This document shows, piece by piece, positions 39,776 to 42,060 of a stretch of DNA of 42,060 nucleotides (position 1 is its first letter; every line of letters starts with the position of its first letter). The notes below the pieces were generated by a model. The model saw only the letters and a program-made list of their open reading frames with translations. It had not been told where the DNA came from and did no database searches. Source of the stretch: Acidobacteriota bacterium (GTDB lineage: Bacteria > Acidobacteriota > UBA6911 > RPQK01 > JAJDTT01); the NCBI GenBank assembly GCA_028874215.1, contig JAPPLF010000095.1:1-42060 (forward strand). Direction: 5' to 3'. A program made the position numbers and the translations under genes.

Positions 39776-39824
39776 GCGCGGCGCGCGGCGGTCTGTTAAA
39801 CTGGACTTCTTTCTGGGGTAGCTT

Positions 39825-39898
<74 letters not shown>

Positions 39899-40078
39899 CC
39901 CACTATTTTCAACGGTTTACGGGGACTCCATTATTTGAAATCCGGGGTTCTTCCAAAAAAGGTTCCGTATGGGTTCCACACCTACACTCGATATGCCGTG
40001 CGGAGCAAGCCGAAAATTTATGCCGAATGTCTCCCGATCCGATTCCACGACCTGTTGGAACGCTAGGGCGGTCCGGAG

Positions 40079-40288
40079 ATGAAAGGCCATGGGTTTCGGG
40101 CGATGGCAAGAACGATCCTGGATGAAGTGTTGGGATTCTGCCTTGACCTCATCGAGCACCAGTTGGCCCACGCGGTGCGGGACCCCAACGGGCGGGCGTA
40201 CAACCGCACGGCCTATCTCCCGGAACAGTGGGAGATGATACAAAAATAGCCAGACCTTGTGGACCAGCTGAAGGCAGTGACCAAGTAA
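40079..40288 (+). pseudogene. C-terminal remnant of a P4-type tyrosine recombinase (integrase)
   Basis: The reading frame MKGHGFRAMARTILDEVLGF, followed by LIEHQLAHAVRDPNGRAYNR, matches the C-terminus of P4/CP4-type integrases: HGFR carries the catalytic His-x-x-Arg, HQLAH the next His, and AYNRT the nucleophilic Tyr. The frame is broken by TAG at 40247-40249, in the place of a conserved Trp (QKW to QK-stop), and continues in frame (LVDQLKAV) to TAA at 40288. Upstream, the protein is out of frame or lost. It sits 180 bases after tRNA-Lys, the typical target class. The enzyme is dead unless a different copy lies off the window. Confidence 0.8.
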
Positions 40289-40570
40289 TTCCGACGCATC
40301 CTGGTTTCTGAGCGTGATAACCGGGCCGTAGTGGTGATCTGCGCGTATCGAATCGCGGACGGATAACTGCCGACGTTCGCTCTCCGGTTGCCGATGCTAG
40401 CATGGCCCGCACCGCGTTGAAATGGATCGTCGCCCATTCGGAAGAACACCTGCTCATCCTGAAGGACACACACCGGTTGCGACCTTTGATGACTCATCGC
40501 CGAAAGCTACAATGGAAAGTGGAAGTTGTGGACCATGTTTGGGGAATCGAAGAACTGATTGGAGTGGCTG

Positions 40571-40960
40571 ATGTCCAGAAATCAAATGGGACCCGAAGGG
40601 GTGGCCGACTATTTCGTCAACTACCTCTTCAATAACTACCAGGGCGCACGTCACGTTCGCCGGGTTGCGTCGTGGGTCGGTCTGATCGTACTCGCCGTCG
40701 ATAAAGTCGGAAACAGTTGGTGGCGCCGCCACACTCGCCAACTAGGGTTCACGTTTCAGGACTGCAAGTTCAAGGTCAAATATGACCACACAATTGGCAG
40801 CAGAGGGGGCATACAAGTCATCGAGATTTTGCCCGGCCGCGGAGAGCCAGAGGGCGGTATCGTGACGTCGATCACGAGCCTGCGTGAAGCGGAACAATTC
40901 TACCTCCACGCAGAGAAGATCCTCCGAAAATTGGTCCAGCAAAAAACGAATCGGCCATAG
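40571..40960 (+). CDS. Small protein of unknown function, island-borne
   Basis: A 129-aa soluble protein with no motif I recognise. N-terminal part: MSRNQMGPEGVADYFVNYLF; a basic stretch (HVRRVASWVG) and a Trp pair (NSWWRRHTRQLGFTF) follow; the C-terminal third is helical and charged (LREAEQFYLHAEKILRKLVQ). ATG 40571 is preceded by GGAGTGG; a TTG 12 bases upstream is possible. It lies 23 bases before the AlbA_2 gene on the same strand, so the two probably form one operon. Base composition is lower in GC than the core genes. Real coding is supported by the neighbour spacing and ribosome site, not by homology. Confidence 0.55.
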   Translation: MSRNQMGPEGVADYFVNYLFNNYQGARHVRRVASWVGLIVLAVDKVGNSWWRRHTRQLGFTFQDCKFKVKYDHTIGSRGGIQVIEILPGRGEPEGGIVTSITSLREAEQFYLHAEKILRKLVQQKTNRP

Positions 40961-40983
40961 TACACAGTCTGGAGGATGGCCCG

Positions 40984-42060
40984 ATGAACGGAGAACACAA
41001 TCGGCTTGAGGGCCTACTGAGCGATCCTCGGGAAGCACCTGATGTTGAGATCAAATGTTGGCTCGATCTCGCTGATGGCGACGACAAAGCGACACTCGCG
41101 AAGGCATTGCTTGCGTTGGCAAACCATGGCGGGGGGTATGTGATCATCGGACTCGATGAGACGTCCGGTTTCGCGCCTGCCTCGGGACGACCGGACGATC
41201 TCAAAGGCTACTCTCAGGATAACGTGAACGGAATTGTTCACCGTTACGCAGAACCTCCGTTTCATTGTTCGGTGCAGTGCATCCAAAATCCCATCTCAGG
41301 CGTCACTCATCCGATCATCGGCGTTCCGGGAAGTCACCCATTTCCCATACGCGCCAAGCGCAACAGTCCGAACAGTCAGACTGTTCAACAGCACGCAATC
41401 TACATCCGCCGTCCGGGGCCGCAAAGCGCACCGCCTCTTACTGGGCTCGAGTGGAATGAGCTATTTGCAAAGTGCTTAAGCGTCCAGCGTGATGAGTCGC
41501 TTGATCACATCCACGGTCTGCTTCGTCAAATCCACAATCTGCTGCCTGTCAGGCCTTCGCCGGGAGGAGATCAGGACGAAATGTCCCGACTGAATCGATG
41601 GGCGGAGGATTGTGAAAATATCTGGCGAGACAAAATCGCCGAACTCCAATCCGACAGCCCTGCACGTTGTCCGTACGGGTTCTTTACGTTCGCCTACCAC
41701 GTTGACGGCGGGACGCCCCTCCGATCAGACGGCGCCCTGCTGGATGTTCTGCGCGATGCACCGCGTCTCACGGGCTGGAACACGTGGTGGGCTCCAACTC
41801 GGCCGGCCCTTGCTCCATACATTAGGGGCGGCGCCATCGAGTGCTGGTTCGGTAGGCATACAGGCGAAAATCGCCAAGGGTATCTCCGAGATGCCGCCTA
41901 CTCCGATTTCTGGCGCGTCACGCGCGGTGGGCGCGCCTTCTTGCTTCGCGGCTACCAAGAGGACGGAACCCATGCAGCGCAGGCCGGTATCCAGCCCGGT
42001 ACCTGTTTGGACCCGACGTTGCCGATTTGGAGAAGCGGCGAAGGACTCCTGCACGCTAAG
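40984..42060 (+). CDS. Schlafen AlbA_2-type ATP-binding protein (cut by window edge)
   Basis: The frame opens at ATG 40984 after GGAGG (40971-40975) and stays open for 359 codons to the window edge. Residues about 18-60 (PDVEIKCWLDLADGDDKATL, AKALLALANHGGGYVIIGLD) are the AlbA_2 / Schlafen-type core: E-x-K followed by K-x-x-x-ALAN-x-GG-x-x-x-IGL. Such proteins occur as regulators and in defence loci. The rest (from about 150) has no recognised motif; DHIHGLLRQIHNLLPV may form a coiled helix, and the region past 220 (YGFFTFAYHVDGGTPLR, IECWFGRHTGENRQGYLRDA) is unfamiliar. Codon use and base composition differ from the core genome. Confidence 0.72.
   Translation, partial: MNGEHNRLEGLLSDPREAPDVEIKCWLDLADGDDKATLAKALLALANHGGGYVIIGLDETSGFAPASGRPDDLKGYSQDNVNGIVHRYAEPPFHCSVQCIQNPISGVTHPIIGVPGSHPFPIRAKRNSPNSQTVQQHAIYIRRPGPQSAPPLTGLEWNELFAKCLSVQRDESLDHIHGLLRQIHNLLPVRPSPGGDQDEMSRLNRWAEDCENIWRDKIAELQSDSPARCPYGFFTFAYHVDGGTPLRSDGALLDVLRDAPRLTGWNTWWAPTRPALAPYIRGGAIECWFGRHTGENRQGYLRDAAYSDFWRVTRGGRAFLLRGYQEDGTHAAQAGIQPGTCLDPTLPIWRSGEGLLHAK

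Follow-up and report, generated by a model that had tools for sequence, protein, structure and literature searches.

A candidate immune gene of the Schlafen/AlbA_2 type on a tRNA-Lys island of an Acidobacteriota bacterium

Introduction

What is the role of two closely spaced genes at the very end of an Acidobacteriota contig, behind a tRNA gene and the remains of an integrase? The window analysed here is the entire contig C95, exactly 42060 bases, and its last stretch holds a reading frame for a protein of 129 amino acids (aa), followed by one for a larger protein in which an AlbA_2 domain is joined to an unfamiliar C-terminal domain (CTD). We refer to the larger gene as the AlbA_2-CTD gene. 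The initial annotation had presented the two as a module with a possible defence or regulatory function; the AlbA_2/Schlafen domain, the mobile island, the defence setting, and the unfamiliar C-terminal region hold up, whereas the conserved two-gene module does not.

In short, we lend about even credence to the explanation that the larger gene, carried by a tRNA-Lys defence island, specifies an immune protein with two domains, in which the CTD would control a Schlafen/AlbA_2 ribonuclease (RNase)-like effector with an abortive outcome. A defence role is proposed because of the island and the neighbouring genes, and a shared input through the CTD because this domain is swapped among Schlafen, TIR, and helix-turn-helix (HTH) proteins. 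Bacterial Schlafens reportedly act in phage defence, according to a 2025 preprint by Taboada et al.

A Schlafen-type domain with its acidic triad

The AlbA_2-CTD reading frame is not a chance product, as none of 500 Markov shuffles of positions 39903-42060 reaches a frame of 359 aa. Because the contig stops at 42060, the gene is truncated in the window; full-length relatives measure 441-481 aa and run about 100 residues past the last residue seen here.

The AlbA_2/Schlafen domain of the initial annotation is recovered by Pfam, where PF04326 narrowly passes with 25.5 bits against a gathering cut-off of 25.3 (28.1 bits in the genome search). With a profile built from eight relatives, matches were obtained to Schlafen 8 (E 1.4e-8), SLFN14, SLFN12, SLFN5, SLFN11, and a structure named CbCash. 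Through the SLFN8 alignment, residues E17, E22, and E59 of the window protein fall on the Schlafen triad, namely the positions of E205/E210/D248 in rat SLFN13, with the step from SLFN8 to SLFN13 numbering made by motif and spacing. Mutation of these three SLFN13 residues abolishes or lowers cleavage (PMC5862951). In all eight AlbA_2-CTD rows of alignment A2, E17 is invariant and the positions of E22 and E59 are acidic; the third position is N or Q in some more distant proteins (G234, G093, and G015). Since the E17/E22/E59 set is kept, we read the domain as catalytic, and judged from these aligned residues, it most likely cuts RNA (tRNA or rRNA).

How does this protein compare with known Schlafens? 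It resembles the RNase core of mammalian SLFN8/13/14 in its profile match and triad positions. The mammalian proteins, however, form a two-lobed pseudo-dimer within one chain, whereas Pfam finds a single AlbA_2 stretch in the window protein. Like the bacterial Schlafen/SLFN_AlbA_2 anti-phage proteins, it combines an AlbA_2/Schlafen domain and acidic triad with a defence setting. Schlafen-linked prokaryotic systems have been described (PMC12839542), and the Schlafens linked to bacteriophage exclusion (BREX) loci come with a minimal histidine kinase and a winged HTH; the window protein instead carries a CTD that lies outside Pfam. PADLOC assigned no family to either window protein.

A C-terminal domain shared with HTH and TIR proteins

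The CTD starts near residue 165 and comprises about 280 aa in full. From residue 165 onward, no match was found in Pfam, NCBIfam, or PADLOC, and a CTD profile matched no solved structure (best E 0.5), so the region is as unfamiliar as it had first appeared. Its invariant positions in alignment A3 are one W, one E, and two D.

The same domain stands behind entirely different N-terminal parts. It follows an HTH in proteins of Finniella, S. meliloti, Azospirillum, Ensifer, and Sphingobium, and in all five genera looked at, hipA lies upstream and shares 4 to 34 bases with the HTH-CTD gene. Three Mesorhizobium plasmids that match only the last 22% of the CTD were left out of this count (one was read and has no hipA annotated). 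In genome G229, the CTD is fused to a TIR/SEFIR domain (L037:5459-7036), with a ThiF-family gene within 3 kb on the other strand. The HTH-CTD/HipA pairs (Sinorhizobium, Azospirillum, Ensifer, Sphingobium, and Finniella) share with the window protein the same CTD and the place of second gene in a tight two-gene unit. They carry, however, an HTH and a HipA kinase partner, whereas the window combines AlbA_2 with a 129-aa orphan and thus lacks the make-up of a HipB-like pair. The order of hipA first and the overlapping HTH-CTD gene second was seen at loci L003, L046, L047, L048, L049, and L054.

The full AlbA_2-CTD architecture occurs on plasmids of Haloarcula, Halobaculum, Sinorhizobium sp. B11, Asticcacaulis, Rhizobium, Agrobacterium, Bradyrhizobium, Mesorhizobium, Deinococcus, and Burkholderia, one of the searches covering 40 of 44 matching plasmid records. 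Rhizobium sp. SSA_523 (H111), covered for 33% and in its AlbA_2 part only, was left out. Within the phylum, one other genome (G234) has the architecture, and the CTD as such is rare, being present in at least 3 of 317 genomes at E 1e-6 with the window's own genome included; this is a lower bound, since the first pass rates no more than a few candidates in each genome. When six AlbA_2-CTD or HTH-CTD proteins were scanned against viral contigs, none of the six gave a relative. PHROG 38563, an unnamed family of proteins borne by viruses (function unassigned, 464 positions), matches residues 7-438 of the 441 residues of the Asticcacaulis AlbA_2-CTD protein and also the first 142 residues of the window protein. 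Since this family covers the AlbA_2-CTD architecture, the protein kind is one already seen, only unnamed; three queries found no matching phage record.

Several single copies deserve mention. Among the full-length proteins of alignment A2, the nearest to the window protein (45% identity) is encoded on a haloarchaeal plasmid (L004:5977-7314), which suggests that the gene has been transferred between domains of life. The Sinorhizobium sp. B11 copy (L005:5989-7331) is annotated as two overlapping frames and is probably a frameshifted AlbA_2-CTD gene. In genome G329 (L035:6733-8111), two overlapping adjacent genes encode separately an AlbA_2-like domain and a protein weakly resembling the CTD (E 1.4e-4), and in genome G093 (L034:2174-8072), an AlbA_2 gene whose product resembles the CTD weakly (E 1e-6) lies behind a gene for a type I restriction R subunit.

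We tentatively propose, with somewhat less than even confidence, that the CTD is a hitherto undescribed, mobile control domain of prokaryotic immunity, either sensing infection or locking onto a partner, that has been swapped among Schlafen RNases, TIR domains, and HTHs of the HipB type in bacteria and haloarchaea. If so, one input would be wired to RNA cutting, NAD loss, or the release of a toxic kinase depending on the lineage, and the CTD would connect, through one input module, three classes of effectors or toxins that have been studied separately (Schlafen, TIR, and HipA). Judged by title or the start of the abstract, we found no open-licence PMC paper that joins these three through one C-terminal domain. 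TIR and Schlafen domains also occur with APAZ, the partner of short Argonautes. As to the idea that the CTD is related to APAZ, five AlbA_2-CTD relatives had no hit in PADLOC, and the plasmid neighbourhoods that we read include no annotated Argonaute gene.

The tRNA-Lys island

The gene lies on a mobile island, as first noted, next to an integrase remnant. This remnant is real: its alignment of 41 aa with an integrase on contig C24, which holds the other part of the same island, has 41% identity (tblastn, E 2.5e-5). A 44-base repeat, identical to the 3' half of the tRNA-Lys gene, has one further copy in the genome, located on C24 and without a complete tRNA. In all three congeners searched, the site is empty, that is, the left flank from C95 joins the right flank from C24 directly, with 85-95% identity on both flanks. 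As the congener flanks are contiguous, the insertion begins at C95:39901, reaches the contig end, and resumes beyond a gap over C24:1-19305. A Schlafen-type candidate is thus located in an island whose empty site exists in sister species.

The defence setting is provided by the C24 part. Opening with a truncated HmaB-like methylase at the contig start, it continues with HmaC (293 bits in PADLOC; DUF499) and a tyrosine integrase; a SacI-like restriction enzyme and its companion C5 methylase follow, and another integrase lies by the repeat. An assembly gap of undefined size separates the C95 and C24 parts. Neither the first half of hmaB nor the tail of the AlbA_2-CTD gene was found elsewhere in the assembly, which is consistent with this gap. 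Alternatively, the two parts could be two elements side by side rather than one island.

Defence genes near related loci

That AlbA_2 proteins keep company with defence genes, as the initial annotation stated, is supported for half of the related loci. We considered ten loci other than the window, with close Rhizobium and haloarchaeal copies counted once, and five have recognised defence genes: cyclic-oligonucleotide-based anti-phage signalling systems (CBASS), AbiE, the defence island system associated with restriction-modification (DISARM), or restriction genes. In Agrobacterium, a type II CBASS (CD-NTase, E1, JAB, and HNH-SAVED) is followed by the AlbA_2-CTD gene 90 bp on, and in G234, a patatin CBASS (patatin, DncV-like cyclase, E1/E2, and JAB) is divergent from it. 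The Mesorhizobium gene is overlapped by 4 bp by AbiEi-AbiEii, and a methylase and matches to DrmA, DrmB, and DrmC (DISARM) come next. Bradyrhizobium has a divergent AbiEii-type gene pair (by annotation only), and Deinococcus has restriction and methylase genes. The stretches read in Haloarcula, Sinorhizobium B11, Rhizobium, Burkholderia, and Asticcacaulis contain no clearly recognised defence genes; the upstream protein in Asticcacaulis resembles LmuA/PDC-M48B only over its first ~90 residues.

As a control, we took 26-kb stretches far from the gene on eight of these plasmids, twice the size of the stretches at the gene. By product names, a CBASS, AbiE, DISARM, or restriction-plus-methylase set occurs in three of the eight stretches at the gene vs none of the eight control stretches. 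Among the control genes are a RelE/ParE pair, a DNA methyltransferase on its own, nucleotidyltransferases, and one gene each of the Fic and HEPN kinds. The numbers are small, and the enrichment points the way expected for a defence gene.

Proposed mechanism and points against it

In the explanation that we favour, the AlbA_2 domain would be held inactive until the CTD senses infection or the state of a partner. Once released, the AlbA_2 lobe would cut tRNA or rRNA, translation would stop, and the infected cell would stall or die. The RNA cutting, the sensing by the CTD, and the abortive outcome are steps that we infer from the domains and their surroundings.

Critically speaking, several points weigh against this explanation. 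The model of the CTD fold, built from two sequences, has a predicted local distance difference test score (pLDDT) of only 39, so domain swapping is the sole argument for a sensor. At the other five of the ten loci, no defence system was clearly recognised close by, and the comparison of neighbours is uneven in that product names alone served to judge the controls and PADLOC and Pfam were used for part of the target loci, on plasmids with incomplete annotation. The AlbA_2-CTD relative of G234 has N as its third triad residue, and AlbA_2 is also annotated as a DNA-binding domain (PMC6299218). Finally, the end of the gene lies beyond the contig, so the gene may be broken.

The 129-aa protein and whether it belongs

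The small upstream frame looks coding, short of proof, because the codon score of this frame (0.122) exceeds those of the others (-0.266, -0.381, and at most 0.045 on the opposite strand) and because of its GC content by codon position (0.58/0.40/0.67). Its size is within chance, given that 398 of 500 Markov shuffles of 39903-42060 hold a frame as long.

The protein is as unfamiliar as was first noted, as no search returned a credible relative. Among 100 relatives, the one match is the protein itself, and at E 0.01, four of 396 phylum genomes match, namely itself and three chance matches. The latter (E 0.004-0.009) are a SIS-domain protein, an open reading frame (ORF) without a Pfam match, and a frame with two stops. 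Genome contigs, plasmids, phages, and viral contigs yielded nothing, PDB, NCBIfam, and PADLOC gave no credible match, and 9595 ORFs of 71 loci contained nothing besides two of the three chance matches. We also rejected the Pfam family BT4734-like_N (E 0.043, 14.4 bits vs a cut-off of 22.4) and PHROG 6019 (E 0.071).

A single-sequence structure model has a pLDDT of 57.1, the five models spanning 57.1 to 39.9, and this low-confidence model contains two helices, four strands, and one long final helix. The best Foldseek matches are PUR-alpha structures (E 4.3e-3, query template modelling score of ~0.39-0.46), with none at E <=0.001. From the model, one might guess at a nucleic-acid-binding helper.

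The gene upstream of AlbA_2-CTD relatives differs each time. The initial annotation had looked to co-occurrence of the two families across genomes and named the absence of the small protein beside AlbA_2 homologues as evidence against its proposal; such an absence is what we found. With no credible relative of the 129-aa protein and all upstream genes different, the pair is not a conserved module as far as these comparisons reach, and the support for defence extends to the large gene and its surroundings, not to the pair. In the explanation that we favour, the 129-aa gene would be a lineage-specific, probably co-transcribed partner of the AlbA_2-CTD gene.

Could it instead be a passenger at the edge of the island, unrelated or in decay, with only the AlbA_2-CTD gene mattering? 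We regard this as a possible, if somewhat doubtful, account, and one that is compatible with a CTD-controlled Schlafen effector. It would fit an ORF that is an orphan in every search, of a size expected by chance, and beside a degraded integrase, whereas the ribosome site, the in-frame codon score, and the 23-bp spacing suggest that the ORF is translated.

A possible regulator or operon member

A different account makes the AlbA_2-CTD protein a regulator or antitoxin, whose AlbA_2 domain would bind operator DNA in the place of the HTH, with the upstream gene (here the 129-aa gene) encoding a toxic or effector partner that the AlbA_2-CTD protein would hold in check. The layout of the relatives speaks in its favour: a CTD behind an HTH, in a gene overlapping hipA in five of five genera, is a toxin-plus-regulator arrangement, and AlbA_2-CTD genes follow varied, sometimes toxin-like genes at short spacing or with overlap (AbiEii at -4 bp, a metallo-beta-lactamase protein at 10 bp, and the 129-aa gene at 23 bp). 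A pure DNA binder, however, would have no need of the catalytic-type acidic triad that is kept here, the TIR-CTD fusion fits an effector with a regulator domain, and the 129-aa protein resembles no known toxin in Pfam, PADLOC, NCBIfam, or PDB. We rate a regulator as less likely than the Schlafen effector, yet as its chief rival, the data being compatible with both.

Hma is named from a three-gene operon often found with Septu (PMC8565338), the criterion being a helicase HmaA, a methylase HmaB, and an ATPase HmaC in one operon. The island has the truncated HmaB and HmaC on C24, the first half of HmaB lying outside the assembly, and no dedicated search was made for hmaA. It is improbable that the AlbA_2-CTD gene is part of this BREX-related (DUF499) operon with hmaA in the missing stretch: C24 does begin within hmaB, hmaC comes next and the direction along the island is the same, C95 and C24 do end on two sides of one island's gap, and for at least 1017 taxa Schlafen RNases are reported to be associated with BREX and BREX-related loci (PMC12839542), whereas Pfam finds none of the additional domains of BREX-linked Schlafens in the window protein, and no other AlbA_2-CTD locus examined has Hma genes by annotation.

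Features of the locus

Table 1. Features at the right end of the window (C95) and the island part on contig C24
Feature	Coordinates	Strand	Basis
tRNA-Lys (CTT), island integration site	39824..39902	+	ARAGORN
attL, 44-bp att repeat, identical to attR at C24:19306-19349	39857..39900	+	Repeat search; empty site in 3/3 congeners
Tyrosine integrase, degraded C-terminal piece	40088..40210	+	tblastn with integrase from the island's C24 part
GGAG, likely ribosome site of the 129-aa gene	40561..40564	+	Sequence reading
Orphan gene, 129 aa	40571..40960	+	ORF call, codon score, low-confidence model
GGAGGA, likely ribosome site of the AlbA_2-CTD gene	40971..40976	+	Sequence reading
AlbA_2-CTD gene, 359 aa visible, cut by contig end	40984..42060	+	ORF call, Pfam
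SLFN_AlbA_2 domain, residues 17-143, with E17, E22, and E59 at Schlafen triad positions	41032..41412	+	
Unnamed CTD, first 195 residues	41476..42060	+	Profile comparison
Island part on C24 (L058): HmaB (truncated)-HmaC, SacI-like restriction enzyme and C5 methylase, two tyrosine integrases	G000 C24:1-19349		

On re-examination, the two reading frames, the 23-base gap between them, and the good ribosome sites that had first been described were all present, the GGAG and GGAGGA motifs lying 6-7 bases 5' of the respective ATG. The GC content is 0.548 for the 129-aa gene and 0.583 for the AlbA_2-CTD gene, vs 0.645 for positions 1-39800 of the window.
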